Below, one piece after another: positions 2,681 to 64,000 of a stretch of DNA of 64,000 nucleotides; the stretch's first letter is position 1; every line of letters starts with the position of its first letter. The translations under genes and the position numbers were made by a program. Source of the stretch: Butyricicoccus pullicaecorum DSM 23266 (GTDB lineage Bacteria; Bacillota; Clostridia; Oscillospirales; Butyricicoccaceae); NCBI RefSeq assembly GCF_900167005.1, contig NZ_FUXW01000002.1:62001-126000 (forward strand), written 5' to 3'. The notes beneath the pieces are model-generated. The model ran no database searches and was not told where the DNA came from. It worked only from the letters and a program-made list of their open reading frames with translations.

Positions 2681-4771
2681 ATGACTTTGCAGACAAGGAT
2701 GACAACCAAAGAAGAGCATGCCGCCTTGTTTCAATCCGGTCGGGATTGCCGTGCGTTTGAATTCATGGGTGCACATCCGCAGACGCGTGATGGTCAGGAA
2801 GGTTACTATTTTTCTGTCTACGCGCCGAATGCAGTGGAAGTTGCAGTAATGGGTGAATTCAACGGCTGGAGTCGCGACGCGCACAAAATGGTGCGCGATG
2901 AAACAGGCATTTGGGAGTGCTTTATTCCTGGTGTCAAGCAATATGATTCGTACAAGTATTCCGTTCATACGCAGGACGGACAGTTCTTTGATAAGGCCGA
3001 CCCGTACGCCTTCCATTCGGAGACACGCCCGTCTAACGCTTCCAAGACCTTTGATCTTGCAGGCTATGAATGGCACGATAACAGCTGGATGGACTGGAGA
3101 GGCAAGCACCTGCCGTACACCGCACCGGTCAACATCTATGAGGTACATATGGGCTCGTGGAAGCGGCACGAGGATGGAAACTTCTATTCCTACCGCCAGC
3201 TGGCTGACGAGCTGATTCCTTACGTCAAGGAGATGGGCTACACCCACATCGAGTGCATGCCGCTCACCGAGCACCCGCTCGACGGTTCTTGGGGTTATCA
3301 GGTCACCGGCTATTTTGCCGCAACCTCGCGTTATGGCACGCCGCATGATCTCATGTATTTTGTGGACAAGTGCCATGAGGCTGGAATCGGTGTCATCATG
3401 GACTGGGTTCCGGCACACTTCCCCAAGGACGGACATGGCCTGGTTGAGTTTGACGGTTCGTACCTCTATGAGTACGCCGATCCGCTCAAGATGGAGCATA
3501 AGGAGTGGGGCACCCGCGTATTCGATTACGGTAAGGTGTCGGTACGTAACCTGCTGTTCTCCTCGGCAATGTTCTGGATTGAGCAGTTCCACATCGACGG
3601 CCTGCGCGTAGACGCGGTCGCATCCATGCTCTATTTGGATTACAACCGTCAGGGCGAGTGGAGACCCAATATCTACGGCGGACGTGAGAATCTGGAAGCG
3701 GTCGACTTCCTGCGTATGCTCAACCATATGGTACTCAGCGAGCATCCGGACGTCATGATGATCGCAGAGGAGTCCACGGCATGGCCGATGGTCACCAAGC
3801 CGGGTTCGGTCGGCGGACTGGGCTTTAACTTCAAATGGAACATGGGCTGGATGAACGATATGCTGTGCTACATGTCGGCAGACCCGTTCTTCCGCAAGGA
3901 CATGCATGATAAGATCACCTTCTCCTTCATGTATGCCTTCTCTGAAAACTACATCCTGCCGCTCTCGCACGACGAGGTCGTGCACGGCAAACGCTCGCTC
4001 ATCGACAAGATGCCCGAGCCGTATGAAAATAAATTTTCCTCGCTGCGTGCGCTCTATGGCTACATGATGGCGCACCCGGGCAAGAAGATGCTGTTCATGG
4101 GCGGCGAGTTTGCGCAGTTCTCCGAGTGGAACGAGGCACGCGGTCTGGATTGGATGCTGCTCGACTACGACGCACATCGCCAGATGCAGACCTACGTCAA
4201 GGCACTCAACGCAGCATACCTTGCCAATAAGCAGCTGTGGGAAAACGACATGGACTGGCAGGGCTTTGAGTGGATTTCGCACGACGATAATCGTAATAAT
4301 ATCATCGCCTTCCGCCGCGTCGCATCGGATGGCACCGACCTCATCTGCGTGGTCAACTTTGCACCCGTTTATCACCCGAGCTACCGCATCGGTGTCCCGT
4401 ATCCGGGCACTTACGAGGAGATTTTCACCTCGGACGATGTCAAGTTCGGCGGATCGGGCGTGAAGAACGGCAAGGTTCGCTCCAAGGCAGCAGCCTCTGT
4501 CGTGGATAAGGTGCTTGATGAGGAGACCGGTAAGATGGTACCGGGCAAGATGCACGGTTTTGACGATCTGATCGATCTGGAAATCGCACCGCTGTCTGTC
4601 ATGTACTTTAAGGGCAAGCCGCGCGTTGCGCGCCGCGCAAAGGCCACTCCGGCGACCAAGGTTGCCAAGGCCGAGAGCAAGACGGCAGACAAGAAGAACG
4701 AGAAGGCAAAAACCGAAAAGCCGCGTGCATCGGCACGCCGCACCAGAGCTTCCAAGACCGACGAGGCGTAA
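2681..4771 (+). CDS. glgB: 1,4-alpha-glucan branching enzyme with basic C-terminal tail
   Basis: Cuts alpha-1,4 glucan chains and re-attaches them as alpha-1,6 branches in glycogen synthesis. A CBM48-type N-terminal module (YYFSVYAPNAVEVAVMGEFNGW) precedes the GH13 barrel. The catalytic Asp is in GLRVDAVASM, the Glu in MIAEESTAW and the transition-state Asp in LSHDEVVHGK. At 696 residues it is longer than the usual 630-650: the last ~50 residues form a Lys/Ala/Arg-rich, low-complexity tail with no GH13 homology that I can see. AGGGAG precedes the ATG. First gene of glgB-glgC-glgD-glgA-GH13. Confidence 0.95.
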   Translation: MTLQTRMTTKEEHAALFQSGRDCRAFEFMGAHPQTRDGQEGYYFSVYAPNAVEVAVMGEFNGWSRDAHKMVRDETGIWECFIPGVKQYDSYKYSVHTQDGQFFDKADPYAFHSETRPSNASKTFDLAGYEWHDNSWMDWRGKHLPYTAPVNIYEVHMGSWKRHEDGNFYSYRQLADELIPYVKEMGYTHIECMPLTEHPLDGSWGYQVTGYFAATSRYGTPHDLMYFVDKCHEAGIGVIMDWVPAHFPKDGHGLVEFDGSYLYEYADPLKMEHKEWGTRVFDYGKVSVRNLLFSSAMFWIEQFHIDGLRVDAVASMLYLDYNRQGEWRPNIYGGRENLEAVDFLRMLNHMVLSEHPDVMMIAEESTAWPMVTKPGSVGGLGFNFKWNMGWMNDMLCYMSADPFFRKDMHDKITFSFMYAFSENYILPLSHDEVVHGKRSLIDKMPEPYENKFSSLRALYGYMMAHPGKKMLFMGGEFAQFSEWNEARGLDWMLLDYDAHRQMQTYVKALNAAYLANKQLWENDMDWQGFEWISHDDNRNNIIAFRRVASDGTDLICVVNFAPVYHPSYRIGVPYPGTYEEIFTSDDVKFGGSGVKNGKVRSKAAASVVDKVLDEETGKMVPGKMHGFDDLIDLEIAPLSVMYFKGKPRVARRAKATPATKVAKAESKTADKKNEKAKTEKPRASARRTRASKTDEA

Positions 4772-31156: not shown

Positions 31157-31190
31157 CAAAAGACCGCTCTATGCCAGAGCGGTCTTTTTT
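31157..31190 (+). terminator. Terminator, copy 1 of a duplicated hairpin
   Basis: AGACCGCTCT (31161-31170), loop ATGCC, AGAGCGGTCT (31176-31185), then T. It differs by one loop base from the copy at 31802-31834. Confidence 0.85.
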
Positions 31191-31801: not shown

Positions 31802-31834
31802 AAAAGACCGCTCTATGTCAGAGCGGTCTTTTTT
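31802..31834. terminator. Terminator, copy 2 of the duplicated hairpin
   Basis: AGACCGCTCT (31805-31814), loop ATGTC, AGAGCGGTCT (31820-31829), T run to 31834 and A run on the other side. Lies between two converging genes and can serve both. Confidence 0.88.
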
Positions 31835-53087: not shown

Positions 53088-53321
53088 GGTGCGAGCAATA
53101 TGATTTGATATAACCCATATCTACCTGTAATATAACAAGAAATGAGTTTATTACATTCTCAGCATTACTAAAGTATTGAACACTGACATTAAATGGACAC
53201 CACGCAATCAGGACAGCTGGTTCTGAAAGAATTGTAAGTAGATCATGCTAGAGATCTTCGTAAAGAAGAAATAAAGAACAAGATGTAGATACGCATTTTC
53301 AACTTTGAACTTTATATGCAA

Positions 53322-53355
53322 AAAACCGCCGATTTCTTACGAAAAAGGCGGTTTT
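53322..53355 (-). terminator. Terminator of the tRNA-Pro gene
   Basis: AAAACCGCC (53322-53330) pairs with GGCGGTTTT (53347-53355); on the minus strand a T run follows. It begins two bases past the tRNA CCA end. Confidence 0.8.
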
Positions 53356-53357
53356 CT

Positions 53358-53402
53358 TGGTCCGAGTGACAGGACTTGAACCTGCGGCCTCTTGACCCCC
53401 AG
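53358..53402 (-). tRNA. 3' fragment of tRNA-Pro(GGG): integrase attachment site
   Basis: Read on the minus strand, the 45 bases are positions 32-76 of a tRNA: loop C-T-GGG-G-G, anticodon-stem strand TCAAG, variable AGGCC, T arm GCAGG-TTCAAGT-CCTGT, acceptor strand CACTCGG, A73, CCA. U33, anticodon GGG and G37 fit tRNA-Pro. To the right the sequence no longer pairs with the stem (CTTGA would be expected). The break exactly at the anticodon loop is where tyrosine integrases cross over. Confidence 0.85.
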
Positions 53403-53443
53403 GCGCATTAAATCGCATGAATTTCGTGAGAAATTAGGCTGTC

Positions 53444-53461
53444 TGACATTTAGTTGACATT
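53444..53461. repeat. Direct repeats TGACATT beside int
   Basis: TGACATT at 53444-53450 and 53455-53461, 11 bases apart; a third at 53184-53190. Position between the tRNA core and int fits arm-type integrase or excisionase sites. Confidence 0.5.
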
Positions 53462-54583
53462 TTATAGGTTGCTATGGCGCAGAAAATCATTTAATTTCTG
53501 AGCGGTCTGCGTTTTGCGGCGCTCGCGGATATGCGTATAGGTATCGCGGGTGACTTCTTCTTTGCTGTGTCCGAGAAGCTGCTGCGCGTCTTTCACATCA
53601 ATGTCAGCTTCAAATAAAAGAGTTGCGTAAGCGTGGCGCAGCTGGTGCGAGGTGACCCGGTGTCGTATATAGGTCTTGATGTATTCTTCGGTTTTGCCAC
53701 GGCGGTGACGAGTGCGCAAAACTTGTTCTGTATACGCAAGACCGGCAGCGAGTGCGTACCGATCAAAGGCCTTGTTGAATGCTTTGAGCGTCATGAGCTT
53801 GGCGCCACCGAACAGATAACCACGCTGATGACGATAGGGGAGCAGCTTATCATACAGATTGTCCAGCATGACGACATCGCGCATGCCGGCCAGTGTCTTG
53901 GTATCTTTCAAGTACGGCCGATCTCCGACAAAATAGACTGAGTGCCGGACGTGGATCAATCGTGCCTCGAAATCGAGATCCTTTTGAATATCGATGGCCA
54001 AGGCTTCCCCGCGGCGCAGGCCGGTGTATAGCAGGAAATAGAGATACAGACCGAAGTTATCGTCTACATGCTCGATGATCGTCTGGATCAGCGCATCATC
54101 TGGCGGTAGCCTTCGTGTCTTGGGCAAGCCGCGGGGGAGTCGGATTGCTTCACAGGGATTGATGTTAATATCTCCATGCAGTACGGCATAGTCACAGATC
54201 TGGCGCATGGCCGACAGATAGATTTTGCACGACTGATGTGAATAACCCTGTTTTGCCATCAGGCGCACGGTGCGTTCGATTTCCAGCGGAGTCATATCCT
54301 TGACCGGGCGTGTATCGAAGTTTTGCGCAGCACGTTTGAGGGCCGGGGAGTAACTCACCCAAGTATTGTGTGCCAGATCCCGGAAGTGTTCTTCTTCCCA
54401 GGCTTCGCGCACTTCTTGGAACAGCCTGCCACGCTTGCGATCAGCGCGAAACTGCCGCACTTTTAATTCGAGCTGCTTGCGGTTGCGGTCATAGAAATAG
54501 ACTGGTTTTGGCAACGGATTGCCATATTCGTCATCTCGGATGACAGCCTGATACCGGCCGTCTTTTCGCTGTGTAATTGTCAT
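53462..54583 (-). CDS. int: Tyrosine recombinase (phage/ICE integrase)
   Basis: 373 residues. N-terminal AP2-like arm-binding segment (MTITQRKDGRYQAVIRDDEYG), SAM-like core-binding domain, catalytic domain with Arg in TGLRRGEAL, HQLRHAYATLL (His-x-x-Arg), LLGHSKEEVTRDTYTHI (second His and nucleophile Tyr). The start is ATG 54583, about 13 bases after AAAGGA; the frame extends to 54634. Lies 60 bases from the tRNA fragment, so it is the enzyme that placed the element. Confidence 0.92.
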   Translation of the reverse strand: MTITQRKDGRYQAVIRDDEYGNPLPKPVYFYDRNRKQLELKVRQFRADRKRGRLFQEVREAWEEEHFRDLAHNTWVSYSPALKRAAQNFDTRPVKDMTPLEIERTVRLMAKQGYSHQSCKIYLSAMRQICDYAVLHGDININPCEAIRLPRGLPKTRRLPPDDALIQTIIEHVDDNFGLYLYFLLYTGLRRGEALAIDIQKDLDFEARLIHVRHSVYFVGDRPYLKDTKTLAGMRDVVMLDNLYDKLLPYRHQRGYLFGGAKLMTLKAFNKAFDRYALAAGLAYTEQVLRTRHRRGKTEEYIKTYIRHRVTSHQLRHAYATLLFEADIDVKDAQQLLGHSKEEVTRDTYTHIRERRKTQTAQKLNDFLRHSNL

Positions 54584-54734: not shown

Positions 54735-55436
54735 TTAGTCAAATTGATCGAGTAACCCATTGCACATGATTAGTGCCATGGATGCGGCATATCCACCGTC
54801 AATATCATAGGTATTCATGCGATCTAAGAAAGTTTGCGTAAATATACCGTTCTGGAAGACCTCATACGTCTTATCGTAATTATATTTCACGGTATCAAGA
54901 TAGGATACAATTTCATTGATTTCTTTGTAGAAATCATCCGTTGGAGAGACATCCAGCGCAGCAATACAGGCGCTTTCATAGCGGCTCAGATTGGTTTGAT
55001 AATTTCGTTCACAGATCGATGGATCAATGTTTGACGCATTGCCCCTCAGGCAGATGGAGAACAGGCTGCTGCTGTCTTTGTACATCTCGTTTGTGGCACG
55101 ATACAGTTGATTGAGAGCCTCATAAGACGGATTGATCCCTGTAGATGCGGGACTGTTGACACTCGCTGTGCGGGTTTCTGCATCATAAGAAATATCGGCT
55201 CCCATAGATTGTGCTACGCCGCGCAGGGGGACATAGGTCGTACCGTTATACTCAAAGACCTCAACTGAATGACCGTTGGAATCGGTCATCTGAGTAAGCT
55301 GACCGTCCACGCGAATGTTGATTCCGGTATGTACGGTAATCTGCTTGACATTGGATTGTGCAGCTGCGGCGACTGGAATGGTAGTGGCAGCCAATAGAAT
55401 CAGGGAAATTGCGCGTTTCGTGATACTCGAATGCAT
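54735..55436 (-). CDS. Secreted protein with stalk (copper-amine-oxidase-N-like) repeat
   Basis: 233 residues. Signal peptide MHSSITKRAISLILLAATTI...AAA-Q. One stalk repeat (TYVPLRGVAQSMGADISYDAETRTASV) is followed by about 130 residues, mostly helical, with three cysteines and no recognised domain. AAGGAGG lies 8 bases before the ATG. First of three adjacent stalk-domain genes on this element; function unknown. Confidence 0.8.
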   Translation of the reverse strand: MHSSITKRAISLILLAATTIPVAAAAQSNVKQITVHTGINIRVDGQLTQMTDSNGHSVEVFEYNGTTYVPLRGVAQSMGADISYDAETRTASVNSPASTGINPSYEALNQLYRATNEMYKDSSSLFSICLRGNASNIDPSICERNYQTNLSRYESACIAALDVSPTDDFYKEINEIVSYLDTVKYNYDKTYEVFQNGIFTQTFLDRMNTYDIDGGYAASMALIMCNGLLDQFD

Positions 55437-55500
55437 GACAGTTCCTCCTTCAAAATTGATTTTTGATGGTTTTTACAAACTTAATTGCAGCATAGTGTGC

Positions 55501-56922
55501 TCATTTGACACACTTATTGCACGGAGTCAGTCCACGCGCCAGCGCGTCAGAGAGTGTACTGAGATAATAAGTACCGCCGTTGCAGTTATTGTCATAGTGA
55601 TACCGTTTACCGGTTTTGGTCACATAGACATTGGCGTGGGCCTCAGTGACTGCCGGATTTGAGGGTACAGTTTCCGGTTGGGACGGTGTGGAAACTGACG
55701 GGGTAGAGGGAGCAGCTTGCGACGAAGAGGGCTGCTTGGTCGAAGTAGTCGAAGCGCTCTTGTTTGCAGTGATCCGGCAGGTCTCACCGTCAGTCATGGC
55801 ATAGATGGTACCATTGAGATCGGTGCGCCAGGTCGGGATGCCCGCGAGCTTGTTCAGCGTCGCCTGGGACGGATGGCCATAGCTGTTGCCGGCACCGCAG
55901 CAGATCACCGCCGCATCCGGGGAAACCGCCGAAAGGAAACTGCTGGTCGTTGAAGTATCCGAACCGTGATGACCGACCTTGAGCACATTGCTTTGAATAT
56001 CGGTACCAGATTGTAGGATAGCTGCCTCAACCTCGGCTTCCGCGTCGCCCATGAACAGGAAAGAGGCGTTCTGGTAGGTCGCCCGCAGGACGATAGACGC
56101 ATTATTTAGATCATCGGCAGGCTGCGCAGCAAGCACAGTGACATTGGCATCGCCGAGCTGGAACGTCGTGCCCACCTCGGGAACAGTTGCGGTCAGGCTC
56201 TTGTTTTCCAGTGCGGTCAGCACAGCGGAATAGGTCTGCGTATTGGAGGTCGCATCAGCCAGCAGAACATTCTGCACATCAAAGGCGTTGATGACATCAT
56301 CCATACCGCCGATATGATCTTCGTGGGGATGGGTGCCGACGACATACTTGAGCGTGCTCACACCGGCATTCTTTAAGTATTCGACAACATCGTCGCCGTC
56401 CTCGTTGCTGCCAGCATCAATGAGCATATATTCGCCATTGCTGGACAGCAGCATACTGTCGGCCTGTCCAACGTCCAGGTATTCGACGACCAGAGACTTG
56501 TGCTCAGGGGTAATGATGTACGCAGATTGCGTATTGTTGTCCCAAAGTACCCGTGCGTCAAGCGATTCTGCAGCAAAGCGAGCGGGCACCATTGTGCGGC
56601 CCTCGATGGTCTGTGCGGGGACATCCAATACCTGAGCAGCGCCGTTTACGGAAGCAGCCGTGCTGCCGATCCGCATCGAGATCACGGTATCTTCCTTGGT
56701 GGCCGTCACGGTTTGGGTTGTCTCGTCCCAGTCTACGGTCGCACCCAGAGACTCGAAGAGCGCACGCACGGGAACCAGTGTGCGGCCATCGACCACAACA
56801 GGGGCCACATCAGACGGTACGGCTGCGCCATCTACGACGAGGGATGCCGCACCAGCTGACCCAATGGATAAGGCTGCGGTCAGAGACAGAAGCGCCAGCA
56901 ATTTTTTGTTCATGCGTTTCAT
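55501..56922 (-). CDS. Secreted stalk-domain / ComEC-like metallo-beta-lactamase protein
   Basis: 473 residues. Signal peptide (1-26). Two stalk repeats (VVVDGRTLVPVRALFESLGATVDW; IEGRTMVPARFAAESLDARVLW) to about 135. MBL domain of the ComEC/Rec2 soluble type: VEYLDVGQADSMLL, THPHEDHIGGMDDVI, FMGDAEAEVE, LKVGHHGSDTSTTS (about 145-385). A Ser/Thr/Pro-rich linker leads to a 42-residue C-terminal module with H-x4-C, ending PCNKC. The MBL domain is probably an extracellular nuclease or phosphodiesterase. The terminal module recurs in the next gene. Confidence 0.88.
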   Translation of the reverse strand: MKRMNKKLLALLSLTAALSIGSAGAASLVVDGAAVPSDVAPVVVDGRTLVPVRALFESLGATVDWDETTQTVTATKEDTVISMRIGSTAASVNGAAQVLDVPAQTIEGRTMVPARFAAESLDARVLWDNNTQSAYIITPEHKSLVVEYLDVGQADSMLLSSNGEYMLIDAGSNEDGDDVVEYLKNAGVSTLKYVVGTHPHEDHIGGMDDVINAFDVQNVLLADATSNTQTYSAVLTALENKSLTATVPEVGTTFQLGDANVTVLAAQPADDLNNASIVLRATYQNASFLFMGDAEAEVEAAILQSGTDIQSNVLKVGHHGSDTSTTSSFLSAVSPDAAVICCGAGNSYGHPSQATLNKLAGIPTWRTDLNGTIYAMTDGETCRITANKSASTTSTKQPSSSQAAPSTPSVSTPSQPETVPSNPAVTEAHANVYVTKTGKRYHYDNNCNGGTYYLSTLSDALARGLTPCNKCVK

Positions 56923-56937
56923 AGCCGGTTTGCCTCT

Positions 56938-57558
56938 TTAGTTTACGCACTTATTGCACGGGGTCAGACCGCGGGACTGCGCTTCGGACAGCGTGCTGGG
57001 GTAATAAGTACCTCCATTGCAGTTGTTGTCGTAGTGATAGCGCTTACCGGTCTTGGTGACATAAACGGTCTTGTTCGTGCTCGACTGCGTCGAGGTTGTG
57101 GTGGAAGTCGAAGTCTGCGTGTTGGACGGTGTAGTCTGGGTAGAAGTAGAGCCGGAGGTCGAAATCTTGACCGTGCCCGAAGCACTGTCCCAGTTGACCG
57201 TTGCATTCAGTGACTCGGCAACAAAGCGAGCGGGTGCCATGGTACGGCCTTCGATGGTCTGAGCAGGTACGTCAAGCGTCTTGGCAACGCCGTTGACATA
57301 GGCAATGGTATTGCCGATCTGCATGGAAATGACGGTACTGCCCTTGGTTGCGGTGGCAGTCTGGGTCGATTCCTCCCAGCCAACGGTCGCACCAAGCGAT
57401 TCAAACAGCGCACGCACCGGTACCAGCGTACGGCCATCTACGATGACCGGAGGCACATCAGTCTGCACGCTCGCACCGTCCACAACGAGAGAAGTTGCAC
57501 CGGCAGCGCTTACGGACAGAGCTGCAGCCATTGCAAAAGCAAAAATCTTCTTTTTCAT
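56938..57558 (-). CDS. Secreted stalk-domain protein with His/Cys C-terminal module
   Basis: 206 residues. Signal peptide (1-21, AGA-T), two stalk repeats very close to those of the 55501 protein, a Thr/Ser-rich linker, and the same C-terminal module (VTKTGKRYHYDNNCNGG then PCNKC), nearly identical in both. It looks like the MBL protein with the MBL domain deleted, or its ancestor. His plus three Cys could bind zinc. AAGGAGG precedes the ATG. Lies 15 bases upstream of the MBL gene: likely one operon. Confidence 0.85.
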   Translation of the reverse strand: MKKKIFAFAMAAALSVSAAGATSLVVDGASVQTDVPPVIVDGRTLVPVRALFESLGATVGWEESTQTATATKGSTVISMQIGNTIAYVNGVAKTLDVPAQTIEGRTMAPARFVAESLNATVNWDSASGTVKISTSGSTSTQTTPSNTQTSTSTTTSTQSSTNKTVYVTKTGKRYHYDNNCNGGTYYPSTLSEAQSRGLTPCNKCVN

Positions 57559-57588: not shown

Positions 57589-58950
57589 TTATTGCATTTG
57601 CTCTTCCAAGCGTAGAGTTTCTCGATATTCCGTTGCGGTGGGAATATCGGTGAACTGAACGGTGGCACCAAATTGATCCAGAACCAGCTGCTTGATTTCA
57701 TTCAGGTCAACGCGGAAGAACTCTTTGCGGGAATTGACTTTATTGACTTTACGCGATTCAAAATGCCGATGTAGCATTGCTTCCAATTCCGGTGCATTTT
57801 CGGAAAAGATCATTGCGTGCACATCAAATGGGAAGGGGACTGAGGCGCTGCTCAGTTCCGCGATACGATCCATAGGTTCCAGACGACGTGTCATGCCGAT
57901 TTTGAATACCTGATCGCCAAACGAACCGATATTGGAAATAATGTATACAAAGCCGGCTTTTGCATTGTTTTCACGTTCCAGAACTTCTTTTTCCGTGGCT
58001 TCCAAGGCGTGCAGCCGGTCTTCCAGCTCTCGGATTTTATCAATATAGAGCTGCTTCTCGACATCGCTTTCGGTTTTCTGCATATATTTCATGAGACGCT
58101 GGATTTCTTGGTTGAATTGCTGCCGATCGCGTTCGATTTTCTTTTTCTCACGTTCGATTTCGCGGCGCACCTTTTCTTCTTCCAGCATTTGCTCACGGAT
58201 GGCACGTTTTTCTTCTTTTTCCTCCTCGACTTTCACAAGGTAAGTATAAATTGCACTGAGTTCTTCCAGCTTAGCTGCTAGGTAATCATGTGTCAGCTGT
58301 ACACCATCAATGGAAAAAATGCGATTGTTGGCATCGAACGCACGCTGGATCTTGCTGCGGGAAGAATCAACATTTTTCACAGAGAGATGATCCAGAATGT
58401 TGGTACACTCTGCGTTGAAGCAGCGCAGGATCTGTTTGACCTGGCTATTCACAACTTGACGAGCCCCTGTGTTGGTGATCGAAAGGGCTGCACCGGTACG
58501 TACCATATCATCCTGCTGTCCGCGCAAAATTACCAATCGGTTTTTGATCTCTTCCGATGTGAACGCGTCATAATCGGCCGCCGGATGTGACATGGGAATG
58601 ACGGACTCGCACTCGAGGGTTTGCAATTCTGCGTTCAATGCGTCACGCTGGGCAGTTAGATCTTGGATTTCACGCATGAGCCGATCACGTTGCTCAGCGG
58701 CTTGACGAGAGAGCTCCTGCATCTGCAAGGTCGATTGCTGAAGTTCTGGACTGGCAGGAGCATCCGACTTGCATTTTAGGTGGATTTTGTAAGTCGCCCA
58801 GAGAAGCAGCACACCGATGGCTGCAAAGATAAGTGTGCCCAGTAACCAATCGTCTGTACGCTGTATAAGTAAGGCTATACCTGCCAATACGCAGCTGACG
58901 CCCATTAGACCAACATAAAATTCAAGTAAGCGAAGTAATATCTTTTTCAT
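57589..58950 (-). CDS. Membrane coiled-coil protein with DUF4041-like and GIY-YIG (T5orf172/MUG113-like) domains
   Basis: 453 residues. Two N-terminal membrane helices (about 7-30 and 37-55), coiled coil (70-115), a conserved middle (LRGQQDDMVRTGAAL; FDANNRIFSIDGVQL) like DUF4041, a long charged coiled coil (235-330), then a GIY-YIG-type end: GFVYIISN, VFKIGMTRR, LHRHFESRKVN, EFFRV. The ATG at 58950 has GGGGGA 10 bases upstream. Such proteins occur on phages and mobile elements; a nuclease role is likely, a defence role only possible. Confidence 0.75.
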   Translation of the reverse strand: MKKILLRLLEFYVGLMGVSCVLAGIALLIQRTDDWLLGTLIFAAIGVLLLWATYKIHLKCKSDAPASPELQQSTLQMQELSRQAAEQRDRLMREIQDLTAQRDALNAELQTLECESVIPMSHPAADYDAFTSEEIKNRLVILRGQQDDMVRTGAALSITNTGARQVVNSQVKQILRCFNAECTNILDHLSVKNVDSSRSKIQRAFDANNRIFSIDGVQLTHDYLAAKLEELSAIYTYLVKVEEEKEEKRAIREQMLEEEKVRREIEREKKKIERDRQQFNQEIQRLMKYMQKTESDVEKQLYIDKIRELEDRLHALEATEKEVLERENNAKAGFVYIISNIGSFGDQVFKIGMTRRLEPMDRIAELSSASVPFPFDVHAMIFSENAPELEAMLHRHFESRKVNKVNSRKEFFRVDLNEIKQLVLDQFGATVQFTDIPTATEYRETLRLEEQMQ

Positions 58951-58991
58951 AGATATATCGTCCCCCATTTTAGATAGGTGATTTTGTAGGG

Positions 58992-59318
58992 TTATCCTAC
59001 AAAACTTTTAGATAATCCAAAGATTTTTTCTTCAAGATAGGGCATAAATTTTTCGAGCAGTTTTTTATCACGATCCGCATATGACCAACACCCTCTACGA
59101 TTAAGAGTTTCGATCCTTTTGTATGCAGATGTATAGGAGACATGGAAATAGTCAGCTATCTCTAAAGCTGATATAGAGCCTTTGCGACGTTCGATCTCAC
59201 GCAGGACTATTTCGGGCATGAGCAACTGTGCAGCAAAAAAATGTGCCTCTATTTCCTCAGGATCTTCATCTTTTTGATGTCCTAAATATAGATGTCCAAG
59301 ATGGTCTGCTGAATTTGC
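58992..59318 (-). pseudogene. 5'-truncated ImmA/IrrE-like metallopeptidase remnant
   Basis: The frame opens right after a TAG (complement of 59319-59321) with no start codon. It reads ANSADHLGHLYLGHQ, then EEIEAHFFAAQLLMPEIV: the back part of an ImmA/IrrE zinc peptidase followed by a helix-turn-helix-like tail (ALEIADYFHVSYTSAYKRIE). The expected HExxH is lost (DHLGH). Immediately beyond 59320 a GC-rich, unrelated gene begins, so the 5' half was replaced by recombination. Translation from TTG 59225 is conceivable. Confidence 0.7.
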
Positions 59319-59325
59319 CTATATT

Positions 59326-59484
59326 TTAGTCCGCCATTTCAAAGCACTCGCACGGCTCGTTATTCTTCTCACCGTAGAAGCGGATGTCATCGTCCTGCGA
59401 CACCTCAATGTTCTTCGCGGTGCATTCGTGGTCGCCGTTGCAGATGTCGTTCGGTAGGCAGTGTTTGCATTTTCCGCAGGTCAT
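59326..59484 (-). CDS. Small Cys-rich protein (52 residues)
   Basis: MTCGKCKHCLPNDICNGD opening, seven cysteines in all (CxxCxxC at 3-9, then 15, 21 and CxC at 45-47), acidic end FEMAD. AAAGGAGGACAAAAG gives an excellent ribosome site, and a near-consensus promoter with a dyad lies upstream. Unrecognised; the Cys spacing suggests zinc or iron-sulfur binding. Confidence 0.75.
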   Translation of the reverse strand: MTCGKCKHCLPNDICNGDHECTAKNIEVSQDDDIRFYGEKNNEPCECFEMAD

Positions 59485-59531
59485 CTTTTGTCCTCCTTTC
59501 CTCAACGGGGTTCCTCTTTCTTTACATTCTC

Positions 59532-59560
59532 ATTATAGCACTTTTAGTCGTAAAAGTCAA
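59532..59560 (-). promoter_or_regulatory. Promoter with operator dyad for the Cys-rich protein
   Basis: Minus strand TTGACT (complement of 59555-59560), 17 bases, TATAAT (complement of 59532-59537). ACTTTTA-GTCG-TAAAAGT (59540-59557) fills the spacer, a perfect 7-bp-arm dyad. A degenerate copy, ACTTTAAGTCGCAAAA, is at 59591-59606. Looks like a repressor-controlled promoter. Confidence 0.8.
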
Positions 59561-59602
59561 GTTTTTTCCGAAAAAATTTTGCCAAAAGGAACTTTAAGTC
59601 GC

Positions 59603-59635
59603 AAAACGGCGAGGGTTGTCAGCCCTCGCCGTTTT
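59603..59635 (-). terminator. Terminator of the minus-strand operon
   Basis: AAAACGGCGAGGG (59603-59615) pairs perfectly with CCCTCGCCGTTTT (59623-59635). It lies just past the restored mazF stop (59642). Confidence 0.88.
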
Positions 59636-59661
59636 ATATTTTCACCGGTCGAGCATCTTGC

Positions 59662-60099
59662 TCAACAGGCTATCATACATCTGCCGCAGTTCCGCACACC
59701 GGGCTTCGGATTCAGCAAGGCGGGTTTCCAGCATGGGGGGGTCTCATCCCTCGGCTCGGCAGCCGCATGGGGCGCAAGTCCGAGGGAAATCATCATCGCC
59801 TCCTCGATGTCCTCCATCTCCTCGGCGGTGACAGCCCCACGGTAGGAACCGAACCGCTCGGTAGACACAGAAGTGATCTGCTCGCACAGAGCCGTGCTTT
59901 CACGGCTCAGACTGCTGATGGTGACGTGGGTGGGCAGGTCCCGCTTGGGCTGCGTGGTGAGGTACACAACCTCCACCGTGCCGCTGTACTGATTGTTGCG
60001 GTTGTTGGACACCACGATGGCGGGACGCCCCGCCCGCTGCTCACTGCCCACGCTGTACCCGCTCTCGATGTACCAGATGTCTCCGCGCTTAATATCCAT
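59662..60099 (-). CDS. MazF/PemK-like toxin with C-terminal frameshift
   Basis: 145 residues as read. MDIKRGDIWYIESGYSVGSEQRAGRPAIVVSNN is the MazF/PemK fold (endoribonuclease toxin), with VVYLTTQPKRDLPTHVTI. After the core, at a run of seven G (59735-59741, C on the coding strand), the frame leaves a plausible tail. Dropping one base restores MLETRLAESEARCAELRQMY and a coiled-coil end with stop at 59642. No antitoxin gene is adjacent. GAGGAGG precedes the ATG. Confidence 0.82.
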   Translation of the reverse strand: MDIKRGDIWYIESGYSVGSEQRAGRPAIVVSNNRNNQYSGTVEVVYLTTQPKRDLPTHVTISSLSRESTALCEQITSVSTERFGSYRGAVTAEEMEDIEEAMMISLGLAPHAAAEPRDETPPCWKPALLNPKPGVRNCGRCMIAC

Positions 60100-60112
60100 T
60101 GTGCATTCCTCC

Positions 60113-60847
60113 TCACAAATTGAAGTCCACGTCCGCGTCATCATACTCGGTCCCGTGGGCGTGATTGTAGCTCTTGATGCTTTCGCCGGGGATATAGCTC
60201 TCACCGTCAGGCTCAAAACGACCGGCGCGAAGCACACCACGAAGCGTGAGCGTAGAATTGTGCTTGTCCTCTCCCAAGATGGCGTCTGCCTCGTCATCCG
60301 TAACGCGCAGTGTCACGCCGAGGCGCATCCACAGCTTATGGCTGGCTGCCGCAGGGACGGGAGGGTTGCGCCGGCAGCTATCGGTTTCCCTGCTGTAATC
60401 GCAGTTGCCGGTTCCGCTGTGATGACACTCATCACAGAGCATCAGACGCTCGCCGCAGTAAGGGCAGAAAGCCTTGAACCCGTCCGTATCGGTGTTCCAG
60501 AACATTTCGACCTCGCTCTCACAGTGCGGGCAATACTCGGTGACGATGTTCGTCCGAGGGCCATCCTCGTCCAGATACGCCTTGCGCAACAGCTCTGCCG
60601 CTTGAAATACCGTGTCATCGCAGGCGGGGCAGTTGTCGCAGGTATCACCCTTTGCCCACCGTTCCAGCCGCTCGATGACACTCATCGGGTCACTCGACAC
60701 GACCTTTTCAGCGGTCATGTCGGTAATCTCCGAATCGAAGAAGTTGAATCCTGCGCGGGTGGCCTTGTTCTTTGCCTCCCGCTCGGACGCAGCTTCTACC
60801 TCGACTTCGCCGTAGCGAAGTTCGCTCACTCTGACTTTGTACTTCAT
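60113..60847 (-). CDS. DpnD/PcfM-like protein with zinc-ribbon cysteines
   Basis: 244 residues. N-terminal MKYKVRVSELRYGEVEVEAASEREAKNKA resembles the DpnD/PcfM family found on conjugative plasmids. The middle has CDNCPACDD, YCPHCESEVEMF, FCPYCGERLMLCDEC: several zinc-binding pairs. The C-terminal region is of unknown type. Start overlaps the next upstream gene by 4 bases; part of one operon. Confidence 0.65.
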   Translation of the reverse strand: MKYKVRVSELRYGEVEVEAASEREAKNKATRAGFNFFDSEITDMTAEKVVSSDPMSVIERLERWAKGDTCDNCPACDDTVFQAAELLRKAYLDEDGPRTNIVTEYCPHCESEVEMFWNTDTDGFKAFCPYCGERLMLCDECHHSGTGNCDYSRETDSCRRNPPVPAAASHKLWMRLGVTLRVTDDEADAILGEDKHNSTLTLRGVLRAGRFEPDGESYIPGESIKSYNHAHGTEYDDADVDFNL

Positions 60848-61233
60848 CCGAATACTACCTCCCCAAACAAAGCATACTGGATAATCATGTCGGCTCCGTC
60901 AGCATCTACTTCGGACGGGTCGATTGAGCCGCTTCCGGCGTCAATAGCCACAGGCACTCCGTCCTCTACCGCTTGGGCCAATCCTCGTAAGAACTTGTCC
61001 AGCGTCAGCTCCCACTTGTCGCTGCTCTCGGCATCGTAGAGCATAAGAGAGCCGTCACGCGCAATCTGCTCGTGGGCGTACTCCCCAAGCCTCTTTCCAA
61101 CGGGCTTTGCGGCTCCGCACCAGCCAGTGATGCCGCCATCCAGTGCGGTACACATGATGTCGTCGATGTCCTGCATTGTGACACGGGCCTTGAGTTTCAG
61201 TTCCACCTCGAACTCACGGGATTCGTTTTTCAT
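60844..61233 (-). CDS. Hypothetical element protein
   Basis: 129 residues, not recognised. Acidic, mixed alpha/beta pattern with DIDDIMCTALDGGITGWCG, a segment seen in hypothetical proteins of gut Clostridia mobile elements (memory, not checked). No signal or membrane segment. AAGGAGG before the ATG; stop overlaps the PcfM-like gene start. Confidence 0.65.
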   Translation of the reverse strand: MKNESREFEVELKLKARVTMQDIDDIMCTALDGGITGWCGAAKPVGKRLGEYAHEQIARDGSLMLYDAESSDKWELTLDKFLRGLAQAVEDGVPVAIDAGSGSIDPSEVDADGADMIIQYALFGEVVFG

Positions 61234-61248
61234 ACCTTGCGCACCTCC

Positions 61249-61656
61249 TTACCACGTGCGCAGCAGCCCTGCCGCGATGGAGCGGCGGGTTCCGATACAG
61301 CCAAACTCAGAGCAGTCAGGCATATCGTGGTTGTAGACATAAGCCATAGGCTCGCTGTTCGCCAGATCCTCGCGGTCCTGCGCCCACTCCTCCGGGTAAT
61401 CGCTGACGTAAAGGTAGCAATCCATCTTGCCGAAATCCGTGTAGCTGCGGATGACGAGGTAGACGAGCGCGTTGTGCTTCTCCTCGAAGTCCCTGATGCG
61501 CTGCAAGTCCTCGCCCTCGGCCCAGAAGAACGCCCCCACCGGCGGCTCGCTGATGCTCACATAGCCGTCCTCCTCGAACTGCTTGATGGTCTGCGGGAAA
61601 ATATCGGCCAGCTTCATGCGCTTGATGGCCTCGGCTTTCTTTTCGTCTCTTGTCAT
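61249..61656 (-). CDS. Hypothetical element protein
   Basis: 135 residues, no recognised domain. Basic N-terminus (MTRDEKKAEAIKRMKLADIF), then a soluble alpha/beta pattern with AYVYNHDMPDCSEFGCIG. Shares its MTRDE opening with the 43-residue gene at 61832. GGAGAT precedes the ATG. Confidence 0.65.
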   Translation of the reverse strand: MTRDEKKAEAIKRMKLADIFPQTIKQFEEDGYVSISEPPVGAFFWAEGEDLQRIRDFEEKHNALVYLVIRSYTDFGKMDCYLYVSDYPEEWAQDREDLANSEPMAYVYNHDMPDCSEFGCIGTRRSIAAGLLRTW

Positions 61657-61671
61657 TTCAGGTATCTCCTT

Positions 61672-61839
61672 TCAGTCATCGTAATCATCGGCGCCGCCCA
61701 GCAGGTTCTCTTTCCAATCACGGTATCTGGGAACTCTGCTGAGGGCTTTATCAAGGAGCCAGAGGACAAAGCCTCCGGCTCCGAAGTAGGCACCGAGCAA
61801 GCAAAGGATGAACAGCCCGGTAAACAGGTCTTCACTCAT
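61672..61839 (-). CDS. Small single-pass membrane protein (55 residues)
   Basis: MSEDLFTGLFILCLLGAYFG with one membrane helix (about 7-29), then a basic and acidic tail ending DDYDD. The ATG overlaps the stop of the preceding 43-residue gene (ATGAGTGA), typical of coupled translation in this operon. Function unknown. Confidence 0.6.
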   Translation of the reverse strand: MSEDLFTGLFILCLLGAYFGAGGFVLWLLDKALSRVPRYRDWKENLLGGADDYDD

Positions 61840-61963
61840 CACAGTCCACCTGCTTTCTCAGCATACGGGCGTACTCGTTGTACGCATGGACGCTCTCACG
61901 GTCATTCCAGTCGGTCTGCTTGTGCTTCTCTGCGAGGAGCGCATAGTATTCGTCTCTCGTCAT
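61832..61963 (-). CDS. Small element protein (43 residues)
   Basis: MTRDEYYALLAEKHKQTDWN, helical and charged. Start ATGA overlaps the peptidase stop; its own stop overlaps the membrane-protein start. Unrecognised, supported mainly by the chain of overlaps. Confidence 0.6.
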   Translation of the reverse strand: MTRDEYYALLAEKHKQTDWNDRESVHAYNEYARMLRKQVDCDE

Positions 61964-62925
61964 TTCAGTTCCTCCTCGTCGTACATATCGCCGTAATAAT
62001 CGCCCAGCTCGCTTTCAAACAGCATGTGAATCACGTTGTCACCGTGCTCTTTGCGCAGGGCCTCAAGCTCGCCCTCGGTGTAGAAGTCAAGCAGGGCGGC
62101 GTATTCGTCCCGAATATCCTCCGGGACTTTCTTTAGGCTCGGAGCGTCCTCCAACACGAGCGGGTAAGTGCCTCGGCCCCAATCGCCCCAGCCGCCGTAA
62201 CCGTATCGGCTGAAACGGTAGCTCTCGATGTACTCGTACTGCGGGAAGTCGGGCTTGGCCGCGTCCGCGACAATTTCCACCACTTTCTTCACCGTAGCGT
62301 TTAGATGCTTGCGGTCGATGTACTCGTGCTGGGTGTGGGCGTTGTAGTAACCGGACGAGAGGTTCACCGCCGCTACGCCGAGCGCGGGAGCGAGGAGAGA
62401 GATGTCGCTGAACGAACCCCATTCCGTTTCAAACCCCTTGCTCGTGATGTACTCCTCAAACTCCGGGTTATCGCAGTCGTAGTAAACGGCGTCGTTCCTG
62501 CCCTTGCGGTCAATCTCGACCAGCATTTTCAGGCTTTCCAGCTCTTTCTTTGGGAGTTTCCCTTTCTGGAAACGGGTGCAGAACGCGCTCGCACCAACGC
62601 CCCCAACTTCCTCATCACAGGTGAACAGCAGCCACGGCTTTACCGCAGACTGCTCGTAGACCGTCACGAGGGCGTAAACGCCGCAGCGGTCATCGCCGCC
62701 GATTCCCTGCGGGGACATCAGGATGCCGCCGTTCTGCGTCTTGCAGATGTGCTTCACAGGGGTCTTGTGAACCGTGTCGAGGTGAGCCACCAGCATAATC
62801 GGGGCCTCTCCGCGAACAAGGATATAACTGTTCTTGCAAACCGTCGTGCGGCCTTTGAACCGGTCGCACAACTTGGAAAACAGTTCTTTCTGGGTGGGCA
62901 TCAGGAAATCTTCTAACTTTTTCAT
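61960..62925 (-). CDS. M20/M28/M42-like zinc aminopeptidase
   Basis: 321 residues. Metal-binding pattern of di-zinc peptidases: VAHLDTVH, GIGGDDRCGVYAL, TCDEEVGGVGA, VEIDRKG, NAHTQHEYI. An acidic, Gly/Tyr-rich tail (GYGGWGDWGRG) of about 90 residues follows the catalytic part. GGAGG lies 10-14 bases before the ATG at 62925, and the start overlaps the upstream gene by 4 bases. An intracellular peptidase on a mobile element is unusual; the substrate is unknown. Confidence 0.8.
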   Translation of the reverse strand: MKKLEDFLMPTQKELFSKLCDRFKGRTTVCKNSYILVRGEAPIMLVAHLDTVHKTPVKHICKTQNGGILMSPQGIGGDDRCGVYALVTVYEQSAVKPWLLFTCDEEVGGVGASAFCTRFQKGKLPKKELESLKMLVEIDRKGRNDAVYYDCDNPEFEEYITSKGFETEWGSFSDISLLAPALGVAAVNLSSGYYNAHTQHEYIDRKHLNATVKKVVEIVADAAKPDFPQYEYIESYRFSRYGYGGWGDWGRGTYPLVLEDAPSLKKVPEDIRDEYAALLDFYTEGELEALRKEHGDNVIHMLFESELGDYYGDMYDEEELK

Positions 62926-64000
62926 ACCGCTTCGTCCTCCTCTTTCTCGTCGATGACGGCTCCGCACTCAGGGCAGGTCCCGTCTTCACATCTCTCAATC
63001 ATCGTGTCGCAGTGCGGGCAGATTTCGTAAGAATCCATGCAATCCTCACAGACGTAGGCGTGGTCGCCGTCACGCAAGGTAACGAACGTCATTTCCTCTC
63101 GGATGTGGTACTCACCGCAGCCCTCGCACTGCTCGTAATATCTGTCGCGGCAGTCCTCGCAGACAAGAACCTCATCGCCACGGGCGTTCACAACCTCCGT
63201 CATATTGTCCGTGTGGTGATAATCCTCACATTCGTAGCACTCACTGCAATACTCATCGCGGCAGCTGTCGCAGTAATATCGGTCGTCAATTTCTGTGATG
63301 CAGTCGTTCGGCCAATACTCCCCGCAGCACTCGCAGTAGGCAAAGTTCTCATCGCGGCAGTCCTCGCAGACCTCGATCCAATTACCGCGTCTGTCTCTGA
63401 CGGAATACAATTCCTCGTCAACATATCCCTCACAGCACTCGCAGTAATTACCGCCGCGACCGTCCTTGCAGTCCTCGCAATAAACTCCGTAGCTTGTCTC
63501 GCAGCCGCAGGAAACGCAAAGGCCGTAGCTCCCGACAACGAGGCTTCTGAAATCCTCCTCGTGGTCGGCGCGGATGCTCACCTTGCCGTCGAAGTTCTCG
63601 TATTCCCAATCGGGATAGCCGCCGAACCCGTCTCCGCGCTCAACGCAGAAACTCTTTTCTCCAACCGTCGGATAGGTCTTCCACAGGTTCGGAACATTTT
63701 CCAGCATCGAAATCTCGCGCTGAATGAGGTCGCGGTACAGCTTGGAATCCTCGCTGGCCCCGTAAACGCCCCCGGAGGTGTTATACATCCGGCTCTGCAA
63801 AAGCAGCCCGTTCCCCGGTTTGTATGCGAAAACCTGCCGTGTGGTCTTGCGGTTGTTCAGGGTTTCCTTGTCGGCGGGGTCTGCCACGGTGAACGCGATG
63901 AACGAAACCTTATCCCGCGCATAGCCCGTGCAGCCGTTGTTGTACTCGTACTCGGTCGAGTTGAACGAATGGCAGCTCGTCAGGGTCGTACCGCGATGGT
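62922..64000 (-). CDS. Protein with many CxxC zinc-binding pairs (5' end outside window)
   Basis: At least 358 residues; the frame is open to the right edge, so the start is not visible. The first ~140 visible residues lack Cys pairs. The rest is a chain of CxxC/CECC/CEDC units (YCECCEGYVDEELYS, VCEDCRDENFAYCECCGEYW, YYCDSCRDEYCSECYECEDYH, ICPHCDTMIERC, CPECG), i.e. six or more zinc-ribbon-like modules in a very acidic context. Could be a scaffold or nucleic-acid-related protein of the element; not identified. Confidence 0.75.
   Translation of the reverse strand, partial: HRGTTLTSCHSFNSTEYEYNNGCTGYARDKVSFIAFTVADPADKETLNNRKTTRQVFAYKPGNGLLLQSRMYNTSGGVYGASEDSKLYRDLIQREISMLENVPNLWKTYPTVGEKSFCVERGDGFGGYPDWEYENFDGKVSIRADHEEDFRSLVVGSYGLCVSCGCETSYGVYCEDCKDGRGGNYCECCEGYVDEELYSVRDRRGNWIEVCEDCRDENFAYCECCGEYWPNDCITEIDDRYYCDSCRDEYCSECYECEDYHHTDNMTEVVNARGDEVLVCEDCRDRYYEQCEGCGEYHIREEMTFVTLRDGDHAYVCEDCMDSYEICPHCDTMIERCEDGTCPECGAVIDEKEEDEAV

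Follow-up and report, generated by a model that had tools for sequence, protein, structure and literature searches.

The locus raises the question of what has left only the 3' part of a tRNA-Pro(GGG) gene in place, and whether one element or more than one is responsible. The window, that is, the whole 64-kb stretch that was analysed, covers positions 62001-126000 of contig C33 in genome G000. Positions above 64000 continue the window numbering rightwards (C33 = window + 62000), and gene numbers are those of our own simple gene caller, with no annotation behind them.

Insertion into tRNA-Pro(GGG)

The minus strand from 53402 to 53357, CTGGGGGTCAAG...GGACCAA, corresponds to positions 32-76 of tRNA-Pro(GGG) plus one base, and ARAGORN found no whole tRNA in the 64-kb window. 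The first-pass annotation had read this piece as the left end of an integrative element with the crossover in the anticodon loop, and had predicted a complete tRNA-Pro(GGG) at the unseen right end. A 32-base pattern from the tRNA piece (up to 3 mismatches) matches the genome at two places, exactly at C33:115372-115403 (minus strand) and with 1 mismatch at C33:214019-214050 (minus strand). The second match is contained in a complete tRNA-Pro(GGG) at C33:214005-214080 (minus strand), so that both the element, with the polarity claimed for it, and the predicted intact gene with the same 46 bases are present.

The two tRNA copies are identical over 46 bp, diverge on either side and lie 98,647 bp apart, start to start. 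A second 3' copy is thus found within about 100 kb; the match to tRNA positions 32-76 holds, and the shared length is 46 bases instead of the 45 first given. Within 162 kb, 17 exact 30-mers occur as direct repeats, and every one of them belongs to this pair, which excludes a chance origin; no copy of the 46-bp repeat beyond these two occurs there, even with 14 mismatches permitted. The remaining three matches to the tRNA query in G000 are tRNA-Pro(TGG), tRNA-Pro(CGG) and tRNA-Met. Judged from these matches, the tRNA-Pro(GGG) gene appears to be single-copy and would therefore have to stay whole. We infer a crossover in the anticodon loop; as the identity extends from position 32 through the CCA end and one base beyond it, the exchange point could lie anywhere in the 46 bp.

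The left boundary and the genes next to it, which belong to an element that we call prophage B, are the following.

53320-53356, minus strand: original host terminator of tRNA-Pro(GGG), a hairpin and then a T run (MFE -19.7 kcal/mol, z -5.3), also present in G001
53357-53402, minus strand: left attachment repeat of prophage B, 46 bp, with its exact partner at C33:214004-214049 in the complete tRNA-Pro(GGG)
53444-53459, plus strand: putative arm-type integrase site TGACATTTAGTTGACA on the element side, its role suggested by its sequence
53462-54583, minus strand: tyrosine integrase of B, 373 aa (PF00589, E = 2.2e-17; phrog_1, E = 2e-55)
54735-57558, minus strand: three cargo-like genes at the integrase end of B, one matching metal-dependent hydrolase profiles
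57589-58968, minus strand: gene of B with DUF4041 and T5orf172 domains (Pfam)

The stop codon of the integrase gene is 60 bp from the repeat, exactly the spacing noted at first pass, and TGACATCAAATTGACA, which resembles TGACATTTAGTTGACA, lies near the right end of the element. The ends of two adjacent cargo genes of B carry a 125-bp direct repeat (81%; 55505-55629 and 56942-57066).

Six genomes of the genus, G000 included, were searched for the uninterrupted site. Three others, G001, G002 and G004, hold a full-length-like match to the tRNA-Pro(GGG) region, and ARAGORN calls a tRNA-Pro(GGG) in each. In G001, the intact tRNA is followed by the very terminator that here adjoins the fragment (132 of 143 bases), in agreement with the earlier view that the terminator stayed on the chromosome side. 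The match to G002 spans the tRNA and downstream sequence (121 of 147 bases) and is less similar beyond the tRNA; that to G004 is confined to the tRNA, behind which stands a different terminator. The right flank is colinear with all three genomes, and the left flank rejoins G001 approximately 10.5 kb further left. Names of flanking genes, such as spoIVA, are those that we presume. The empty sites of the congeners, together with the synteny of the flanks, indicate that the insertion is real and that the fragment side is the original downstream side; the comparison of strains proposed at first pass thus yielded a congener with the same flanks and no insertion at this position. The restored tRNA gets a new predicted terminator from the element, a hairpin behind the gene with an MFE of -24.0 kcal/mol (z -6.1).

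To the left of the tRNA fragment, the DNA at approximately 42.9-53.3 kb is without counterpart in G001, which has other DNA of similar length, and its GC content is partly low (approximately 0.40-0.43 from 48 kb). At 53184-53199, outside the element on the chromosome side, lies TGACATTAAATGGACA, with 1 mismatch to the arm-type site pattern, possibly left behind by a previous insertion. Two near-identical 33-bp hairpin-like stretches (31158-31190 and 31802-31834), 644 bp apart, are probably terminators.

An insertion of this type is of a known and common kind. Among the islands of the Islander collection, 2083 of 3919 are reported as anticodon-centred (PMC4383910). As described there, such islands, like our element, carry a tyrosine integrase and are bounded by an intact tRNA on one side and by a 3' fragment in direct repeat on the opposite side, and in the anticodon-centred ones the identity likewise begins in the anticodon loop (PMC4383910). 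Against the parts of that description cited here nothing essential differs; in our case the integrase is found beside the fragment, and a new terminator follows the restored tRNA.

Two phage gene sets between the repeats

The interval between the repeats holds two phage gene sets. The set of prophage A, at approximately 59.3-116.9 kb, consists of an integrase, two repressors, an exonuclease, DNA polymerase, helicases, holin, endolysin, tape measure, sheath, major head, terminase and ParB-like genes. The set of B lies around A, with the tyrosine integrase on the left and, from approximately 116.9 kb, regulators, an SbcC-like gene, terminase, portal, major head, sheath, tape measure and endolysin. 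A single conjugative or phage element is ruled out by the two terminases, sheaths, tape measures and endolysins in opposite orientation. The element was thus correctly recognised at first pass as such, although not as a composite: two prophages are present, one within the other, and the second went unseen as its boundary pair and structural genes were outside the window or unrecognised. As far as the sequence can tell, the 98.6-kb composite is very probably a nested pair, in which prophage B (approximately 41 kb) is interrupted by prophage A (57.6 kb).

The two gene sets have separate relatives. A is colinear with the IMG/VR contig G088 over 58 of 78 called genes, with 1 order break (7.2 kb of G088 left out), and with contig G087 over 54 of 78, with 3 order breaks (approximately 8.3 kb of G087 left out); of the 38 genes of B, none is matched in G088 and 1 in G087. 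The serine integrase of A (79075-80478) has the resolvase, recombinase and zinc ribbon domains (PF00239, PF07508, PF13408), and no DUF4368 was detected in it with Pfam. At E ≤ 1e-140, this protein was found in 2 of 394 genomes of the order, G000 itself and G142 (60% over 352 of 467 residues), and at E ≤ 1e-170 in 1 of 398 genomes of the phylum, again G000; the terminase of A was found at E ≤ 1e-180 in 1 of 391 genomes of the class, also G000. A is thus rare, and the sample of insertion sites is correspondingly small.

As for B, its integrase is absent at E ≤ 1e-60 from the other 86 of the 87 genomes of the family, a pattern search of viral contigs (6 matches) gave no confirmed relative, and only 3 phage records are related to it, at 29-34% identity. 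The repressor of B has an unusual layout with two HTH motifs.

Three related genes of A, each encoding approximately 145-156 aa, lie in both orientations at 64585-65043, 78644-79078 and 112412-112882 (window numbering) and cross-match one another in relatives; the one of the three that was scanned received no PHROG or Pfam label. Between the endolysin of B and the intact tRNA, at C33:211-214 kb (window 149.2-152.0 kb), approximately 3 kb have a GC content of 0.35 and are left blank by the gene caller although reading frames are visible; cargo is likely there.

The junction between A and B

Inside the window, the left junction of A and the genes behind it comprise the following features.

58992-59297, minus strand: C-terminal half of the immA-like gene of B; the N-terminal half is at C33:178875-179180 (minus strand), outside the window
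59298-59299, no strand assigned: crossover dinucleotide, AA on the plus and TT on the minus strand, deduced from the two junctions together with the reading frame that joining them restores
59300-59324, plus strand: left attP arm of A, palindromic at 21 of 25 bases with its partner at C33:178850-178874; G088 has the same arms
59326-64000, minus strand: first genes of A within the window (A runs on to C33:178874), ordered as in G087 and G088
59662-60099, minus strand: MazF-like gene near the left end of A (phrog_1936, E = 6.4e-37), also in relatives
61960-62925, minus strand: peptidase-like gene of A

Joined at the shared dinucleotide, the flanks of A encode a 203-aa protein with the stretch HEIGHLYLGH. 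The halves meet at codon 102-103, within the metal motif HEIGH (residues 100-104), and PF06114 (ImmA/IrrE-type peptidase) matches across the joint (E = 1e-13). An unbroken homologue (42% over 196 residues) lies directly behind a repressor in the family member G049, and the last 52 residues of that repressor match the repressor of B at 29 positions. The order of repressor and protease is the same in G049 and in B, which, once the flanks of A are joined, has the ImmA-type metallopeptidase beside an HTH repressor that defines an ImmA/ImmR module. A pattern search of viral contigs with the joined protein confirmed only 2 relatives, which are weaker (38%, residues 90-171).

None of 100,000 random pairs drawn from the element reached the 21 of 25 matches of the two arms, the best having 17. 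On this evidence, the ends of A are taken to be the halves of a palindromic attP, with the same dinucleotide at both junctions. This structure bears on a tandem origin, in which both prophages would have integrated at the same tRNA and the attachment site between them would later have been lost. Such an origin would agree with the report that neighbouring prophages are usually due to tandem arrays (PMC8112680), and with the gene list, which has no second integrase near the inner edge of B. We nevertheless consider it extremely improbable: A is bounded by palindromic serine-integrase arms, the two halves of the single gene that it interrupts read through in one frame when joined, the same arms mark the ends of other A-type phages, and the 46-bp repeat occurs just twice in 162 kb with 14 mismatches permitted.

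The integrase gene is a further point. In phages, it usually lies next to attP, an arrangement that is not found in A, where 19.8 kb and 36.4 kb separate the serine integrase gene from the two ends. Because so remote a position is unusual for a phage, another recombinase might conceivably have been the agent of A; none was recognised among the scanned subset of A's 78 proteins. The distance of approximately 20 kb to the nearer end would also suit an entry of A into B through homologous recombination, or an assembly chimera, with the serine integrase uninvolved. This is very unlikely in view of the exact switch at a common dinucleotide and palindromic arms, of the related phages that carry the same arms at their ends in other genes, and of the flanks of A, in which no repeat of at least 30 bases was found. 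The distance itself recurs in G088, where a serine integrase 79% identical to that of A lies approximately 20 kb from the left end, as in A.

Possible consequences for the induction of B

The nested pair can be accounted for by two successive insertions. B, a temperate phage of the myophage type, would have entered the single-copy tRNA-Pro(GGG) via its tyrosine integrase and rebuilt the tRNA, supplying from its own DNA the 46 bp of the 3' part as well as a terminator. A, from another lineage, would then have entered the immA-like gene of B via its serine integrase, at the TT within the HEIGH codons. As A lies within B, either B or its immA should have come first. Both insertions, both reconstructed empty sites and both phage gene sets can be read from the assembled sequence; both integrases are presumably active.

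In ImmA-type systems, the protease relieves repression. Seated in immA, A would block the ImmA-dependent derepression of B, and its precise excision would rebuild immA and give B back its switch. In a pneumococcal prophage, disruption of immA is reported to have abrogated excision in recA-mutant experiments and to have weakened the response to mitomycin (PMC12637031). By analogy, A would silence the ImmA-dependent induction of B until it excises. Since an activation route independent of ImmA is also described for the pneumococcal prophage (PMC12637031), induction of B may still be possible. Causes other than the split immA could also have made B inert. If the presence of A does decide whether B can be induced, one prophage would hold the switch of another through physical interruption, and the composite of approximately 98.6 kb at one tRNA site could move or stay as a unit under the integrase of B.

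Several known systems resemble this arrangement in part. Nested prophages reported from E. coli (PMC8112680) and pneumococcus (PMC8637289) likewise have a complete prophage inside another through site-specific recombination. The E. coli sites, as described, are situated close to effector-gene loci and go back to chromosomal attB (PMC8112680), whereas here the site is a motif encoded in the gene of a regulatory protease, and the integrase of the incoming phage is of the serine type. Helper-embedded PICIs (PMC10111431) also sit in a prophage gene that excision restores, form a nested island pair, and have related integrases that repeatedly favour prophage genes. They are described as small satellites with AlpA in the late genes of the helper (PMC10111431), unlike A, a phage of 57.6 kb that itself carries terminase, head, sheath, tape measure and lysis genes and whose target is immA-like. 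In active lysogeny, as reported for the prophages in comK and sigK, a prophage also interrupts a gene that excision would restore; there it is a gene of the host, here a gene of another prophage. Literature searches on nested prophages and immA insertion found no report of a phage inside immA, which is not proof of absence.

Insertion sites of A-type phages

Other phages with the same ends were sought with patterns of the two arms. A 20-base pattern of the right arm matched 7 viral contigs and 4 genome contigs, a left-arm pattern 24 stretches and a 16-base right-arm pattern 39 stretches; matches whose locus had no A-type genes were set aside as due to chance, except that L174 and L175 were counted on shared end sequence. 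Six viral contigs share one site in a portal gene and, with L203 as a variant of it, were counted once. This gave eight distinct sites: ours, G088, the portal gene, L217, L181, L173, L174 and L175. L176 was dropped as a probable chance match, its arm lying in unrelated sequence with one weak repressor hit.

In a count that viral contigs bias, five of the eight sites are clearly in other mobile elements and one probably is, the remaining two being G088 and L173. Besides ours, the clear cases are a lambda-type portal gene with a terminase (six contigs and the variant), a tail gene beside a tape-measure gene (L217), a site beside a CI-like repressor, an endonuclease and a tyrosine integrase, with 118 bases on the phage side (L174), and a VirB4/TrbE-type gene in a locus without A-type genes (L175). 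L174 is evidently a near-identical phage end in a different target, its 118 bases being identical to the right end of A (118 of 118) and departing from it right after the AA dinucleotide. In L181 the site is in hsdS, with phage primase and helicase genes further along, and it is this one that is probably mobile. The arms of G088 are at 3100 and 63199, inside a gene other than immA, a short gene beside a Y-family polymerase; no Pfam family matched the joined 141-aa protein, which we take to be YolD-like. A DUF1653 gene lies near the L173 site. Because a viral contig tends to bring viral flanks with it, this bias spares only the four sites that come from genome records (ours, L173, L174 and L175), and three of these four are clearly mobile.

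The A-type sites agree in little beyond the AA/TT dinucleotide. This also fits a neutral accident, in which a promiscuous integrase hit a dispensable gene of a possibly dead prophage and A has no effect on B, a reading to which we give slightly less than an even chance. Serine integrases that have multiple targets and a TT core have been described (PMC10083194), and an insertion into mobile DNA costs the host nothing. B, however, retains what looks like a complete set of structural genes, and its integrase is intact; the cut lies in the repressor-adjacent gene that would matter most for induction, a single case that cannot show selection. The multi-targeting large serine recombinases have resolvase, recombinase and zinc-ribbon domains, varied target genes and the TT core in common with A's enzyme; DUF4368, described as frequent among them (PMC10083194), was not found in it. 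In that work multi-targeting is defined within one 90% cluster (PMC10083194), whereas the A-type integrases with known ends are 68-79% identical to that of A, several of the site records having no integrase.

Prophages inside prophages and promiscuous serine integrases are therefore known; new are immA as a target and an apparent taste for mobile elements. It is conceivable, although on balance we consider it unlikely, that the A-type phages form a hyperparasitic temperate lineage with a relaxed serine integrase, found mostly inside mobile elements, and that A is a removable lock on the antirepressor protease of B. The A-type ends make it testable whether loose serine integrases come to lie in mobile elements by chance, by selection at the level of the host or by a real preference.

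Two further observations concern the arms. In L203:391-470, an A-type right arm is followed by a seemingly unbroken stretch of the portal gene, unlike in the six other contigs; L203 is either an assembly mixture or has a shifted junction. In three contigs that belong to a single A-like group (L028, L029/L187 and L035/L186), the arm TATAGGCAAATTCAGC occurs once, beside repressor and integrase genes. It lies between homologues of A genes 71 and 73, without a partner arm, and in this sister group the attachment site perhaps adjoins the integrase.
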